A model generated the notes under the pieces. It saw only the letters and a program-made list of their open reading frames with translations. It searched no databases and was not told the origin of the DNA. 42,178 nucleotides of DNA. It comes from Thermocrinis sp. Its GTDB lineage: Bacteria > Aquificota > Aquificia > Aquificales > Aquificaceae. Position 1 is the first letter of the stretch, and the number at the start of each line of letters is the position of its first letter. Location: assembly GCA_009903855.1 (NCBI GenBank), contig WYEK01000085.1, forward strand, positions 1 through 42,178. Direction: 5' to 3'. Shown here in pieces: positions 1,213 through 41,143 of the stretch. A program made the position numbers and the translations under genes.

Positions 1213-1272
1213 TTTTATAATGAATGGCGTGAGGACTAAGTTAGCTCCTTCAGAGTCCGGAGGAACATCCCA
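1213..1272 (+). promoter_or_regulatory. Likely rlmN-lepB promoter and ribosome binding site
   Basis: A perfect TATAAT at 1216-1221 lies in the 69-nt divergent gap between the ParB-like gene and rlmN. No good -35 is placed at 17 nt. A GGAGG at 1259-1263 precedes the rlmN ATG by 9 nt and supports that start. Confidence 0.4.
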
Positions 1273-2325
1273 ATGAAGGATCTTTCTAAAACAACTTACA
1301 TAACTTCCTTAAACTTGACACAGCTGAGAGAGTTAGTTAAGAGCCTTGGGTGGGAGCCCTACCGGGCAGACCAAATTCTAAACTGGGTTTATAAAAGGTT
1401 CATCACAAACTTTGAAGAGATGACAAACCTATCAAAGGAGCAAAGAAGATTTCTGAGTGATAATTATTCTATTCACAGCTTAGAACTGGTGCAAAAGGTG
1501 GAGGGTGGAGATTCCACAAAGTTCTTGTTTAAAACCATCGATGGGCATCTTTTGGAGACAGTGCTAATATACGAGCGGGACCATCTTACCCTATGTGTAT
1601 CTTCCCAAGTGGGCTGTGCGGTGGGATGCACCTTTTGTGCCACCACCAAGGATGGGCTTGTTAGAAACTTAAGGACCGAAGAGATCATAGACCAATTTTT
1701 GCAGGTGCAGAGGCATACACCGCAAAAGATAAGAAACGTAGTCTTTATGGGTATGGGTGAGCCCTTGGCTAACTACGAAAATGTTAAGAGGGCAGTAGAG
1801 ATTATGGTTAGTCCTTGGGGGCTTGACCTGTCCAAAAGGAGGGTTAGCATATCCACCAGCGGGCTGGTCCACCAGCTCAGGCTCATGGCTCAGGACCCAC
1901 TAATGAGAGAGTTAAACTTAGCAGTTTCCATCAATGCACCCACTCAGGAACTTAGAGAAAAGCTTATGCCCCTTTCAAAGACAAACACTCTTCAGGATCT
2001 GATGGAAACCCTTTATCAGTTTCCTTACCCCTCCGACAGAAGGATCATGATAGAGTACGTGCTTTTGGAAGGAGTCAATGATGAAGAAGTGCACGCAAGA
2101 CAGCTTGCAAACCTTCTCAAAAAGAAAAGAAATAAATTCAAGGTGAACCTCATACCCTTTAACCCAGACCCATCCTTGCCTTATAAGAGACCATCAATGG
2201 AGAGAGTTTATAGATTTCAAAAAATCCTTTGGGAGGAGGGTATATCTACCTTCATAAGGTTGAGCAAGGGGGTGGATATATTTGGCGCCTGCGGTCAGCT
2301 AAGAAGAAGACTTGTGTTAAGATAA
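1273..2325 (+). CDS. rlmN: Dual-specificity RNA C2-adenosine methyltransferase RlmN
   Basis: A radical-SAM enzyme that methylates C2 of A2503 in 23S rRNA and, in many bacteria, A37 of some tRNAs. The 350 residues fit the family. An N-terminal RNA-binding helical part (residues ~1-95) has the typical GWEPYRADQILNWVYKR. The radical-SAM cluster motif CAVGCTFC lies at ~114-121, followed by NVVFMGMGEPLANY. A GACGQL near the C-terminus carries the Cys that forms the methylene-Cys/thioester intermediate. lepB begins 7 nt downstream, so the two are probably co-transcribed. Confidence 0.96.
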   Translation: MKDLSKTTYITSLNLTQLRELVKSLGWEPYRADQILNWVYKRFITNFEEMTNLSKEQRRFLSDNYSIHSLELVQKVEGGDSTKFLFKTIDGHLLETVLIYERDHLTLCVSSQVGCAVGCTFCATTKDGLVRNLRTEEIIDQFLQVQRHTPQKIRNVVFMGMGEPLANYENVKRAVEIMVSPWGLDLSKRRVSISTSGLVHQLRLMAQDPLMRELNLAVSINAPTQELREKLMPLSKTNTLQDLMETLYQFPYPSDRRIMIEYVLLEGVNDEEVHARQLANLLKKKRNKFKVNLIPFNPDPSLPYKRPSMERVYRFQKILWEEGISTFIRLSKGVDIFGACGQLRRRLVLR

Positions 2326-19116: not shown

Positions 19117-19145
19117 AGTTTAAAACTTTAGTCCATTTTTGTCAA
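19117..19145 (-). promoter_or_regulatory. dnaK-hslO promoter
   Basis: On the minus strand: a perfect -35 TTGACA (19140-19145), a 17-nt spacer, and a -10 TAAACT (19117-19122), with AAGGAGGTG just before the dnaK start. A housekeeping-type promoter. Confidence 0.7.
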
Positions 19146-19159
19146 GTTTTTTATGTATG

Positions 19160-19220
19160 CTTTTTTAAAATACAGACCAAGAAGTATATCCCGATTAGGG
19201 AGTTTTTGGACTAGCCTCAG
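19160..19220 (+). repeat. IS200/IS605-like miniature element (copy C)
   Basis: About 60 bp with a left motif TTAAAATACAGACC, a small hairpin TCCC-GATTA-GGGA, a TTTTT run and the right motif TAGCCTCAG. The same parts in the same order occur at 23120-23166 and at the two ends of the tnpB element. Read as a miniature derivative of the tnpB element; this is inference from the alignment. Confidence 0.45.
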
Positions 19221-19916: not shown

Positions 19917-20273
19917 CACTATGAAGCTATGGTTAGCTATATGGCGGTAATTATGGAACATATCTATAAGTGGGAAAACTATAGGGAGTCCGCTTATATG
20001 GGTAGCGGGTGGAAGAAAAGCATCATTAACGCAAGAACGAAGATGCTAAAACTCTTCAAGGGTGCGCCTTCCCTTAAAGCGAAGGCTCAGGAAAAAGAAA
20101 CCTTGCAACGGGCATGGGAAGATGCGGTGTTAGACTTAATAGCATGGTTTAAGGTGAATGAAAAGTTAGCCCTTAGGCACTTTGGCAGACTTCCTACAGA
20201 AAAAGACTTCCCAAAAGAGTGTCCTTATAGCTTCCAGCAGATTATGGAATACGAACCGTGGCTTAAGGAGTGA
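19767..20273 (+). CDS. DUF29 family protein, copy 1
   Basis: 168 residues matching the DUF29 family: an N-terminal LYEKDFYLWVQENLRLLKNK and LVDWENLLEEIEDMGQR, a central helix MAVIMEHIYKWEN, and the C-terminal HFGRLPTEKDFPKECPYSF. The fold is helical and the function is unknown; the family is common in cyanobacteria and thermophiles and often comes in multiple copies. No Shine-Dalgarno is seen; TATATT ends 6 nt before the ATG, consistent with a leaderless mRNA. It is followed 17 nt later by its paralogue. Confidence 0.85.
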   Translation: METKTQNLKELYEKDFYLWVQENLRLLKNKEYDLVDWENLLEEIEDMGQRHYEAMVSYMAVIMEHIYKWENYRESAYMGSGWKKSIINARTKMLKLFKGAPSLKAKAQEKETLQRAWEDAVLDLIAWFKVNEKLALRHFGRLPTEKDFPKECPYSFQQIMEYEPWLKE

Positions 20274-20275
20274 GA

Positions 20276-20440
20276 CTTATATTTAAACCTATGGAGACAA
20301 AAACCCAAAATCTAAAAGAACTTTATGAAAAGGACTTTTATCTGTGGGTGCAGGAAAATCTCAGACTTCTCAAAAACAAAGAATATGACCTTGTAGACTG
20401 GGAGAACCTGTTGGAGGAGATAGAGGATATGGGACAGAGG
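20276..20440 (+). repeat. Direct repeat, copy 2 (start of DUF29 gene 2)
   Basis: The second copy of the 165-nt repeat, offset by 524 nt from the first and including the same TATATTTAAACCT upstream sequence. Confidence 0.9.
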
Positions 20441-20791
20441 TATCTGGATAGTGCAGTTAGCTTTATGGCGGTAATCTTGGAACACCTTTACAAGTGGGAA
20501 AACTTCAGATATAGAGAAGATGTAGGGCACAGCTGGATAAGTAGCATAAACAACGCAAGAAACGAACTTGATATAATCTTTGAAACATACCCAAGCATAA
20601 GGAAAAAAGCAGCAGAGGAGTTACCCACCGCTTGGCGTATTGCTGTAAAAAGGCTTGTAAGATGGTTTAAAGAAGATGAAAACCACGACCTTGCTAAAAA
20701 ATACTTTGGCAGATTTCCCACGGAAAAAGATTTCCCACAGGAATGCCCTTATACCTTTGAGCAGGTGATGGAATACGAGCCTTGGGTTTAA
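20291..20791 (+). CDS. DUF29 family protein, copy 2
   Basis: 166 residues from the ATG at 20291; the track start at 20270 (MRLIFKP...) is rejected because it lies in the repeat's upstream part, and the duplicated gene starts at the matching ATG. The first 50 residues are nearly identical to copy 1. The rest (VSFMAVILEHLYKWENFR, KKYFGRFPTEKDFPQECPYTF) is clearly related but diverged. Function unknown. The sharp change in identity within the gene suggests recent gene conversion or partial re-duplication. Confidence 0.85.
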   Translation: METKTQNLKELYEKDFYLWVQENLRLLKNKEYDLVDWENLLEEIEDMGQRYLDSAVSFMAVILEHLYKWENFRYREDVGHSWISSINNARNELDIIFETYPSIRKKAAEELPTAWRIAVKRLVRWFKEDENHDLAKKYFGRFPTEKDFPQECPYTFEQVMEYEPWV

Positions 20792-20833
20792 TTCCTCAAC
20801 TTCCTCAAGCACAAGGAGTTTAAAGATTGAAGA

Positions 20834-20857
20834 GAGTCCTGACGAGGGATTTTTCAA
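20834..20857 (+). repeat. IS200/IS605-like right-end remnant (copy B)
   Basis: AGTCCTGACGAGGGATTTTT followed by CAAAA. About 20 of 23 bases match the right end of the tnpB element (GTCCTGATGAAGGATTTTT at 41082-41101), including a TCCT/GGGA hairpin with a five-base loop. The AGCCTCAG tail and the left end are missing, so it is read as a decayed end. Confidence 0.4.
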
Positions 20858-20879
20858 AAGAACTAAAAAACATACTTGA

Positions 20880-23075: not shown

Positions 23076-23119
23076 TATAACCCACATTCTCAGCAGTTTC
23101 TGACAGCCGACAAGTGGAA

Positions 23120-23166
23120 GCTTTCTAAAATACACCCAGTAGGGAATTTATAAAACAGCCTCACAG
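23120..23166 (+). repeat. IS200/IS605-like miniature element (copy D)
   Basis: About 45 bp: left motif CTTTCTAAAATACA, a small CCC-AGTA-GGG hairpin, a T/A-rich stretch and AGCCTCAC. It has the same order of parts as copy C (19160-19220), without the extra sequence in the middle. It lies between two minus-strand genes and about 8 nt from the stop of the 166-residue gene. Confidence 0.45.
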
Positions 23167-38466: not shown

Positions 38467-39465
38467 ATGAGTTCTACCCAAAGAAAAATAATACTTGGTC
38501 TGCTCTTTCTCTCAATCTTAGTCTTTGGCGGAACTGCCGGCTACATGATCATAGAGGGTGCTTCTTTCCTCGATGCCCTATTTATGACGGTTATTACCCT
38601 GACAACCATAGGTTACAGTGAGCACGTTCCTCTTTCTAAAACTGGCATGGTTTTTACAATGATACTTGCAATAAGCGGTGTGGGCTTTTTCTTTTACATC
38701 TTTTCCATAATTGGAGATATAATTGCAACATCCACATTGGAGATCTTTTCGGGAAAGAGGATGGAAGGACAGATAGCCAAGTTAAAAGACCATTGTATTC
38801 TGTGTGGTTTTGGAAGGGTTGGCAAGCATGTTTATGAATTTCTGAGCCCTGAACTACCGGTGGTGGTTATAGAAAAGGACCCTGAAAAAATAGAAGAACT
38901 CCAGAGCAAGAATATTCTGCATATCCAAGGGGACGCCACCTTAGAAGAAACCCTCCTTAAAGCGGGCATAGAAAGGGCTAAATACCTTGTGGCTACCCTT
39001 GGAGAGGATGCCCTCAACCTTTATGTGGTTATAACCGCCAGAAGCCTAAATCCTGATATATACATAGTAAGCAGGGCGAACGAGCATGGTGTGGAGAAAA
39101 AGCTTTATCAGGTTGGCGCAAACAGGGTTTTCTCCATCTATCATACGGGCGCGCGAAAGATCGCCCTTTCTGTCTTAAAACCAAACGTGGTAGATTTCAT
39201 AGATGTGGCCTATCCGGAAGTACTCTCGGACTTGGAAATAGAGGAGGTTAAGGTTTCAGAAACGTCCAGCTTGGTAGGAAAAACCATAGAGCAAAGTCAG
39301 ATAAGACCAAAGTTGAACGTGGTAATTCTTGCCATAAGGAGAAAAACGGGAGAGATGCTGTTCAACCCAGGACCCTCTACCCTAATTCAGGATGGGGACA
39401 TACTGATCGTGTTTGGTGAAAGGAGAAAACTGGACCTGTTAAGCGACGTTGCGGGTGGTAAGTAA
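38467..39465 (+). CDS. Two-TM ion channel with TrkA-N and TrkA-C domains
   Basis: 332 residues. Two membrane helices (IILGLLFLSILVFGGTAGYMI and AISGVGFFFYIFSIIGDII) flank a pore with TLTTIGYSEHVPLS. A TrkA-N NAD-binding RCK domain follows (CILCGFGRVGKHVYEFL, VVIEKDPEKIEEL, IQGDATLEETLLKAGI), then TrkA-C (EVKVSETSSLVGKTIEQSQ). The layout is that of MthK-type potassium channels, but the filter reads TIGYSE rather than TVGYGD. Regulation by ligand at the RCK ring is expected from the family. Confidence 0.88.
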   Translation: MSSTQRKIILGLLFLSILVFGGTAGYMIIEGASFLDALFMTVITLTTIGYSEHVPLSKTGMVFTMILAISGVGFFFYIFSIIGDIIATSTLEIFSGKRMEGQIAKLKDHCILCGFGRVGKHVYEFLSPELPVVVIEKDPEKIEELQSKNILHIQGDATLEETLLKAGIERAKYLVATLGEDALNLYVVITARSLNPDIYIVSRANEHGVEKKLYQVGANRVFSIYHTGARKIALSVLKPNVVDFIDVAYPEVLSDLEIEEVKVSETSSLVGKTIEQSQIRPKLNVVILAIRRKTGEMLFNPGPSTLIQDGDILIVFGERRKLDLLSDVAGGK

Positions 39466-39477
39466 AGGCAAAGACTG

Positions 39478-39496
39478 TTCTAAAAATACAAACCCA
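39478..39496 (+). repeat. Proposed left end of the tnpB element
   Basis: TTCTAAAAATACAAACCCA resembles the left motifs of the short copies C (TTTAAAATACAGACCA) and D (TTCTAAAATACACCCA). It lies just outside the tnpB promoter. Confidence 0.4.
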
Positions 39497-39525
39497 TTGA
39501 CACAGAAAGGTATTTCCTCTAAAAT
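39497..39525 (+). promoter_or_regulatory. tnpB promoter
   Basis: A perfect -35 TTGACA (39497-39502), 17-nt spacer and TAAAAT (39520-39525). Transcription would start at about 39532, so the ATG at 39535 would have a leader of only ~3 nt and no Shine-Dalgarno. Confidence 0.7.
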
Positions 39526-39534
39526 CTAAGCTTG

Positions 39535-41103
39535 ATGTTTGTTAGCCTACAGTTTAAGCTTGAACTAAGAAAGGAAGACAAAGAAAAACTCATAAAGCTT
39601 ATGCGTAAGCAATCCTCCGCCATTCGTGTAGCATACAATATGCTAAAGGAGTTGGAAAAAGAAAAAACAAAAAACCCACATGCCCAAATATACCAAAGAC
39701 TAAGACAGTTATTCCCTGACCTGCCAACAAAATACATTGACTCAGCTATTTACAAAGCTAAACAATATCCCACAAACAAAACAGTTGTGTTTGGAGGCAA
39801 AAGACTTTTTGAAAAGCTTTGCAAAAATCATCTTTCAGGAAAGGCGAGAGAAAAACTTAAAAAGCAGTGGAGAGAACTAAGACAAGGAACTCTTATAAGC
39901 ATCGGGTCAAAGGCAGACAAAGGAAACAGACTAATGAGATTTGAAGACCTAAACGGACAGCTACACCTTAGGATTACCACAGGAAACAGAGAATTTATCT
40001 ACGCCAAAGTGTTAAGAGAACCAAGCAACAGCAAAGACAAGTGGCTCACCTTTATGACTATGCTTTTAGAAAGCTGGAAAACTCAAAGCTATTTCCCTTA
40101 TACAGTGGAATTAAAGCTAAGGAATGGAGAGGTTTATGGAAGCGTATCCTTTGAAATCCCAACGCCTGAAGTTAGATACACAAAAGAAAACGGAGTAATA
40201 GCCATAGATACAAACGCATCACCCATCCACTTAGCCATGGCGGAAGTCTCAAAAACTGGAGAACTACTAAGCTATCAGACTATTAGCCTACACCACCTTT
40301 TAGGACTTTCTCAAAACAGCAAAGACTACCAAGAGTGGATATTAGCACATCAGATAGTGAATTTGGCTGTTGAGAAAGGTAAAGCGATAGCCATAGAGAA
40401 CCTAAAGAAACTCAAAAAAGGAATGCGTGGGGATGGGAAAGCTAAGCTAAGAAAAAGACTTCACAACTGGAATGCCAAAAAGTTTTTGCAAAAGCTAAAG
40501 AGGGTTGCAATGTTAAAGGGAGTGGAATTAGTAGAAGTCAATCCTGCTTACACATCAATTATAGGCATGCTAAAGTATGCACCACAGTTGAACATAGACA
40601 AGGACATAGCGGGTGCTTATGCGATAGGAAGGAGTGCTTTAGGATTTAAAGAGGACATGCCTGAGAATTACGAGAAGCTTCTGAAGGACAAAGCATATCT
40701 AGAGTTTGCACTGAAAAGGTATGAAGAGAGAGAAAAAGAACTTAGAGAACTTATAGAGAAGGAAACTAACGAGTATAAGAGAAATGCCTTAGAAAGCAAA
40801 CTAAGGAGTGTAGAGGATGCGAGGAAACTTTTAGCTAATCTCATACAAAGCCTTCAGAGTGAGCCAAGCGGATGTGAGGGAGCCGATGGAAGGAATCCCG
40901 AGCGGGGAAGGGTAGCAAAAACTACCCTTCAAAGTGCTTGGCAAGTTCTGAAGGTAGCCCTCCTCTTCCCTATCCTTGGAAGGGTCTTACCAAGAGACCT
41001 TTCTCCTCTGAAGCCCGTGTTGGTGGAAGGGGTGTGGAATAGGGTGAGGAGTAGGTTAGTTCCCTTAGAGGCTGGGGGGACGGTCCTGATGAAGGATTTT
41101 TAA
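39535..41103 (+). CDS. tnpB: TnpB-related protein of an IS200/IS605-like element
   Basis: 522 residues from the ATG (a TTG at 39532 is also in frame). TnpB proteins are RNA-guided DNA nucleases and the forerunners of Cas12. RuvC-like parts: first Asp in VIAIDTNASPIHLAMAEV, Glu in KAIAIENLKKLKKG, and last Asp in NIDKDIAGAYAIGRSALGF. Between, NPAYTSIIGMLKYA replaces the CxxC zinc-ribbon, so this is the zinc-free TnpB-related branch. A charged coiled stretch (~400-435) leads to a tail with RDLSPLKPVLVEGVWNRVRS, which probably overlaps a structured RNA. No tnpA is present, so it depends on another transposase or no longer moves. Confidence 0.88.
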   Translation: MFVSLQFKLELRKEDKEKLIKLMRKQSSAIRVAYNMLKELEKEKTKNPHAQIYQRLRQLFPDLPTKYIDSAIYKAKQYPTNKTVVFGGKRLFEKLCKNHLSGKAREKLKKQWRELRQGTLISIGSKADKGNRLMRFEDLNGQLHLRITTGNREFIYAKVLREPSNSKDKWLTFMTMLLESWKTQSYFPYTVELKLRNGEVYGSVSFEIPTPEVRYTKENGVIAIDTNASPIHLAMAEVSKTGELLSYQTISLHHLLGLSQNSKDYQEWILAHQIVNLAVEKGKAIAIENLKKLKKGMRGDGKAKLRKRLHNWNAKKFLQKLKRVAMLKGVELVEVNPAYTSIIGMLKYAPQLNIDKDIAGAYAIGRSALGFKEDMPENYEKLLKDKAYLEFALKRYEEREKELRELIEKETNEYKRNALESKLRSVEDARKLLANLIQSLQSEPSGCEGADGRNPERGRVAKTTLQSAWQVLKVALLFPILGRVLPRDLSPLKPVLVEGVWNRVRSRLVPLEAGGTVLMKDF

Positions 41104-41120
41104 AATAGCCTCAGTTAGCT
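41060..41120 (+). repeat. Proposed right end of the tnpB element / 3' end of its guide RNA
   Basis: GGTCCTGATGAAGGATTTTT followed by AAAATAGCCTCAG, spanning the tnpB stop. It forms a TCCT-GATGA-AGGA hairpin. In TnpB elements the guide RNA (reRNA/omegaRNA) covers the 3' end of the gene and runs past the right end into the flank, so the guide here would begin just after the TCAG. The exact boundary cannot be fixed. Confidence 0.5.
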
Positions 41121-41143
41121 ATGTAGGGATTAAAATTAACTCT

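Follow-up and report, generated by a model that had tools for sequence, protein, structure and literature searches.

How has a tnpB gene come to lie between transposon ends that duplicate their target? The question is raised by a 42,178-nucleotide contig of Thermocrinis sp. (WYEK01000085.1, from a draft genome of 1.1 Mb in 147 contigs, 71% complete), hereafter the window, and by the tnpB-bearing element near its right-hand end. In the open-access literature consulted, prokaryotic TnpB is tied to duplication-free transposases, either Y1 or serine: insertion of IS200/IS605 elements does not duplicate the target (PMC8612924), and both terminal inverted repeats and target duplications are missing from IS607 elements (PMC6188088). 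A preliminary description of the window had spoken of a family of IS605-like ends sharing a short hairpin, a T-rich run and, at three of four places, AGCCTCA, and all four places do show the features described. The ends themselves, however, proved to be of another kind, namely, 19-bp terminal inverted repeats (TIRs; GAGGCTGTTCTAAAAATCC) with target-site duplications (TSDs) of 9-12 bp, in common with an insertion sequence that encodes a DDE transposase. With a probability of about 0.75, we propose that, in Aquificaceae, a transposon of the TIR/TSD (DDE) type captured a TnpB nuclease together with its guide RNA; the resulting element would be moved in trans by a DDE transposase and kept by guide-RNA-directed retention.

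The boundaries of the element were established by comparing genomes, which were searched by pattern, by protein and with covariance models. First, in an alignment of 24 full copies with their flanks, identity begins at GAGGCTGTTCTAAAAAT(C/A)C and ends at the inverted repeat GGATTTTTAGAACAGCCTC. Second, the 19-bp repeat, allowing up to two mismatches, occurs 12-49 times in each of six members of the genus. In G004 it occurs once, and a reversed-repeat control never gave more than one match. The 19-bp repeat bounds tnpB copies of the genus and of G012, and G015/G022 and G029 have related or different matching repeat pairs at the ends. Third, a clear flanking direct repeat was found in 19 of 47 two-ended tnpB or miniature copies, versus 0.35% when right flanks were shuffled, and its length in the hand-curated set (24 copies) is 9-12 bp. 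The duplication of the window copy is too decayed to be scored alone, and the element could be placed because the orthologous sites of G005 and G006 are empty, reading GGTGGCA-AGTTAGC... Such empty sites in relatives had been proposed beforehand as a means of fixing the ends. The resulting coordinates are collected in Table 1.

Table 1. Features of the tnpB element and of related copies in the window (coordinates are window positions).
Feature	Position	Strand	Basis
Complete tnpB-bearing element, 1642 bp	39471..41112	+	24 aligned full-length copies; empty sites L216 (G005) and L217 (G006)
Left terminal inverted repeat AAGACTGTTCTAAAAATAC, differing from consensus at 3 positions	39471..39489	+	
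Right terminal inverted repeat, differing from consensus at 2 positions; doubles as 3' end of the predicted guide-RNA scaffold	41094..41112	+	
Left copy of 10-bp target duplication, decayed, AGTAAAGGCA	39461..39470	.	placed via empty site
Right copy of target duplication AGTTAGCTAT, identical to empty site; predicted guide start	41113..41122	.	empty site
Candidate target-adjacent motif, TGGTA in window, TGGCA in both empty sites	39456..39460	+	
Promoter-like TTGACA-N17-TAAAAT within left end; other copies similar	39497..39525	+	sequence (consensus read by eye)
tnpB-like gene, 523 aa, reading through guide-RNA region into right repeat	39532..41103	+	
Predicted guide-RNA (reRNA) scaffold, ~260 nt, over tnpB codons ~440-523	40850..41112	+	synonymous constraint, retention in miniature elements, fold z = -5.2
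Stem H1, GTTCCCT 41059-41065 / GGGGGAC 41075-41081; loop GAGGCTG 41068-41074	41059..41081	+	98% paired, compensatory changes
TAGCCTC, end of inverted repeat, pairing with loop 41068-41074 (pseudoknot)	41106..41112	+	covaries with repeat in G002, G029
H2, hairpin of the preliminary description, TCCT-GATGA-AGGA	41084..41096	+	
Miniature relic beside TTTGTCA and dnaK promoter	19157..19218	+	
Decayed right end only, downstream of DUF29 gene	20809..20865	+	
Decayed miniature element, common to G001 and G005	23116..23162	+	
Further decayed right end	1230..1298	+	

Inspection of the sequence between paired repeats yielded a candidate for the mobilizing activity. In G001 (L074:863-1796), a 934-bp element with the same ends as the tnpB elements and a perfect 10-bp duplication, GCGAAACAGT, encodes a protein of 258 aa that matches DDE_Tnp_1 (PF01609, E=1.6e-12), its best NCBI models being those of the IS5 and IS4 families, both below their cut-offs. 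Because this insertion sequence has these ends and this duplication, tnpB appears from the sequences to be a non-autonomous passenger on DDE ends. Fragments of the DDE element are found in G000, G001, G002, G005, G006 and G012, where its ends recur, several right ends in G012 being 92-97% identical. The L074 copy itself interrupts the left end of another tnpB element, of the IS607-like kind, for which L069 of G000 has the intact sequence (GGTGCGAAACAGTTGC). A composite in L052, in which a DDE miniature is joined to a tnpB element, is flanked by a 9-bp duplication and appears to have moved as one unit. As in IS5/IS4-type insertion sequences and their miniature inverted-repeat transposable elements, there are inverted repeats, a duplication, a DDE_Tnp_1 transposase and internally deleted derivatives. 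Unlike them, the passenger is a predicted guide-RNA nuclease, and the miniatures retain its RNA.

Judged by its sequence, the passenger protein is a divergent TnpB. It matches TIGR01766 (E=3e-17), its best relatives in the PDB are Cas12f proteins, and the RuvC-like D-E-D triad (D226, E289, D358) is invariant in 19 sequences. The score of the window protein against the NCBI guided_TnpB model, 48.9 bits, lies under the curated cut-off of 100, and all 19 family members match that model below E=0.001. A ratio of nonsynonymous to synonymous substitution rates (dN/dS) of ~0.1 over codons 1-440 shows strong purifying selection at the sequence level, and we infer an RNA-guided nuclease. Full-length copies elsewhere in the source genome share 86-89% amino-acid identity with the window protein, those of G001, G003 and G012 85-89%, and those of G002 ~72%; Thermocrinis sp. 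Bin P10 and Hydrogenobacter sp. RSWP5 are among the named relatives with close copies. A tnpB of the same kind, 85% identical, lies on a contig labelled Candidatus Caldipriscus (L234, LBFQ01000001.1), possibly by binning error or transfer.

The 3' end of tnpB evolves differently from the rest. Between Thermocrinis and G002 copies, identity at fourfold sites lies around 0.4 (range ~0.15-0.65) through codon 441 and steps up to 0.75-0.89 at codon 442 and beyond. Likewise, comparison of the window gene with the copy in L055 gives a synonymous rate (dS) that falls from 1.9 to 0.29 toward the 3' part while dN/dS rises from 0.12 to 0.57, so the last 245 nt look to be held mainly by RNA, and the remainder by protein. 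This region folds much better than its shuffles (z = -5.2, -5.3 and -4.0), and a conserved structured sequence extends from the tnpB 3' end to the right end of the element, as expected of a guide-RNA scaffold, which is how we interpret it. Rfam gave no credible match for the window or for the element copies.

Three helices, counted on 25 sequences, support the fold. Stem H1, of 7 bp, is 98% paired, two of its base pairs showing compensatory changes, and the pseudoknot, between loop GAGGCTG and the terminal CAGCCTC of the inverted repeat, is 94% paired with a C-G/U-A exchange; these are the best covarying parts of the RNA. The 4-bp hairpin H2, whose covariation had been put forward in the preliminary description, is 91% paired within the genus with a single compensation, that of the window's own TCCT/AGGA. 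That proposal is correct in essence: the covariation of H2 within the genus is weak, and the stronger signal lies in H1 and the pseudoknot, two helices absent from that description. The assignment of the fold to a scaffold that resembles a guide RNA, at the 3' end of tnpB, is borne out. Taken together, the three helices are 95.1% paired; shuffles gave 92.6%, none of 500 reaching the real value, and sliding lowered the pairing to 40-60%. In a wider set of 36 variants the values are 93.7% versus at most 87.3%, with arms located by best pairing, which favours structure. Moreover, concerted changes of loop and repeat give GAGGTTG/CAACCTC in G002 and CAGGG/CCCTG in G029, and outside the genus the hairpin is rebuilt as CTCTAC/GTAGAG in G015 and G022 and as AGTCTGTG/CACAGGCT in G029. 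Some derived copies, with a TCCGCTG loop, retain only part of the pseudoknot.

The same region persists where the gene is gone. A miniature family of 273-308 bp, including copies of ~307 bp and found in several genomes, consists of the left repeat, a TTGAAA-N16-TATAAT promoter and the scaffold region only, and G029 has its own reRNA-only miniature of 311 bp. The right-end covariance model R1, for which 25 copies including that of the window were used, returned 90 bits at 41045-41112, weaker matches at 19140-19218 (E=0.009) and 20809-20865 (E=0.025), and a fifth site at 1230-1298 (49 bits, E=1e-10) that had previously been overlooked. The site at 23136 falls under the R1 threshold; its support comes from ends that resemble the inverted repeat and from orthologs in G005, G001 and G003. 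The locus at 19157-19218 holds a longer derivative in G003, with none shown in G002 and G004. Genome-wide, there are 16 right ends in the source genome, 11-30 in five of six other genus members and none in the sixth. All four places first described are copies or relics of one family, which has further members, and the short ones are miniature relics, as had been suspected. The significance of the family comes from these whole-genome and relative comparisons, not from word counts: AGCCTCA by itself is no more frequent in the window than chance predicts (6 occurrences, 7.7 expected), and the proposed left motif TAAAATACA, which does correspond to the inner part of the left inverted repeat, does not clearly exceed chance with one mismatch (19 seen, 13.7 expected).

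These observations are consistent with the following mechanism. The 1.64-kb tnpB element would be non-autonomous, and an IS5/IS4-like DDE transposase from separate insertion sequences with the same 19-bp ends would act on it in trans, placing it on the 3' side of a K-N-C-A motif and duplicating 9-12 bp. A guide RNA would start ~260 nt before the right end, its scaffold closed by the pseudoknot with the inverted repeat and its guide provided by the right flank, starting with the target duplication. Whenever excision restored an element-free site, or a sister copy carried one, TnpB would recognize ..CA there as the target-adjacent motif (TAM) and cut the site, and repair would then copy the element back in. 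Miniatures reduced to the ends, a promoter and the guide RNA would depend on TnpB supplied in trans. In agreement with this, ..CA stands immediately 5' of the left duplication in 22 of 24 curated copies, whatever the duplication length, with a mirror motif on the right side in 3, and this is the position where a guide starting with the duplication would need its TAM. The comparisons themselves establish the ends, the duplications, the empty site, the constraint and covariation of the RNA, the selection on TnpB and the ends held in common with a DDE element, and from these the nuclease activity, the role of the motif as TAM, the movement in trans and the retention are deduced.

Several points weigh against this reading. 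The sequence tie to TnpB runs only through the RuvC region and a weak N-terminal match, and a predicted structure (11 close homologs) reached a mean pLDDT of 45, too poor, and was not used for fold search. No homolog of the L074 DDE protein was found in G003, G015 and G022, which carry the elements, so trans-mobilization is not established in those genomes. Finally, the motif also flanks DDE-only copies, on the right side of the DDE element in six of eight two-ended cases; it is therefore probably the target preference of the transposase, and may be only that. We set it aside as proof of a TAM, and we also dropped orientation bias as proof of selection by TnpB, since DDE copies show such a bias as well and since L257 and L057 are exceptions with the opposite orientation, with TGTCA at the guide-RNA end of the element. 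That TnpB uses ..CA is suggested by analogy with ISDra2, whose TAM is the same as the TnpA target (PMC8612924).

How do other explanations fare? A TnpB turned RNA-guided regulator or host-beneficial nuclease, its retention role gone, would account for the strong purifying selection on the protein and for insertions beside promoters such as that of dnaK; given the invariant triad, the many dispersed copies and miniatures and the lack of a conserved single location, we consider it unlikely. It is very unlikely that the element is a decayed IS607-type one that lost its serine recombinase and has inverted repeats incidentally. Sister TnpBs from the same order (45-48% identity) do reside in IS607-like elements, with ends AGGAGG..AACAGTTG and ..GGTTGACCAGG. 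IS607 TnpBs (PMC11061315, PMC10711439) are the closest protein relatives, the sister-copy scaffold has a GTTAGTTCC.. stem in common with the present one, and published IS607 reRNAs also use pseudoknots. However, IS607 elements lack repeats and duplications (PMC6188088), whereas many copies here have both, with repeats that match the DDE element. IS607 ends are those of serine recombinases, and the published TAM is AGGAG (PMC11061315) or GAGGG, in agreement with the AGGAGG that precedes the sister copies.

Could the TnpB-like protein and its RNA be the transposase, with the DDE element borrowing its ends? The genomes in which no DDE-protein homolog was found would fit, but DDE_Tnp_1 is an established transposase fold, the DDE element has the same ends and a duplication, miniatures without tnpB have moved too, and no RuvC nuclease of this kind is known to join DNA, all of which makes this very improbable. 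Least credible is an IS200/IS605-type element, peeled and pasted as single strands at hairpin ends by a Y1 TnpA, next to a short target motif and without duplication: it has in its favor the tnpB gene, a hairpin near the right end and miniature copies, and against it the 19-bp repeats, the 9-12 bp duplications, the presence of the same ends on a DDE element, and a hairpin that is part of a coding-overlapping RNA. No Y1 TnpA lies inside the window element, no genome-wide search for one having been made. Ends of the IS200/IS605 and IS607 kinds are both rejected on the inverted repeats and duplications. The element still has likenesses to ISDra2-type IS200/IS605 TnpB-reRNA systems (PMC8612924), namely, a tnpB with the RuvC triad, a motif 5' of the target, and a structured RNA that overlaps the 3' end of tnpB and the right end and is continued by a flank-derived guide, here predicted. 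Unlike in ISDra2, with its Y1 ends without duplication, the window element has inverted repeats and a duplication, its scaffold ends in an inverted repeat, and the expected TAM is ..CA rather than TTGAT.

The capture may not be unique. The tnpB elements of G029 have a different repeat, GGGTGTTTCAAAAATC, and 10-bp duplications, and between such repeats lies a different open reading frame with a weak match to IS982 transposases (E=1e-6). Because a tree groups the G029 TnpBs with IS607-like TnpBs of another genus, apart from the Thermocrinis group (100/99 support, with a long-branch flag), capture probably happened twice, in parallel in G029. The fuller proposition, that at least two DDE captures of bacterial TnpB-reRNA took place in Aquificaceae, in each of which the repeat joined the pseudoknot and the TAM switched from the IS607-like AGGAG(G) to the ..CA of the new transposase, with miniatures using TnpB in trans, has in our view about even chances.

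Some side observations concern the surroundings of the copies. The insertion altered the end of a TrkA-like gene (39450-39465), GGTAAGTAA in the window versus several more codons in relatives. A TGTCAA motif (19140-19156, and in the flanks of many copies) is the complement of the -35 box TTGACA, and some insertions sit immediately upstream of sequences resembling promoters, among them that of dnaK. The DUF29 gene (20270-20791) has many diverged copies across G000-G006, some beside transposon relics.

Capture of Fanzors by TIR/TSD transposons has been described in eukaryotes (PMC10711439). The parallel includes TnpB relatives in cut-and-paste transposons and a duplication at the scaffold-guide junction; unlike the eukaryotic and viral Fanzors, the window element is bacterial, has a 9-12 bp duplication, and is non-autonomous, with a separate DDE element and reRNA-only miniatures. 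We found no report of such a capture of TnpB in bacteria in the open-access literature, an absence that is weak evidence. A TnpB on DDE ends raises the question of how guide-RNA retention works with a duplicated target, where the left side of the filled site still has the motif and 9-12 bases that match, and it opens the co-adaptation of TAM and transposase target to tests in bacteria. It also supplies TnpBs from hot-spring bacteria, probably with a new TAM, and a case in which one sequence is constrained as protein code, guide scaffold and transposon end together. The double capture with its TAM switch, if true, would be the bacterial counterpart of Fanzor capture.
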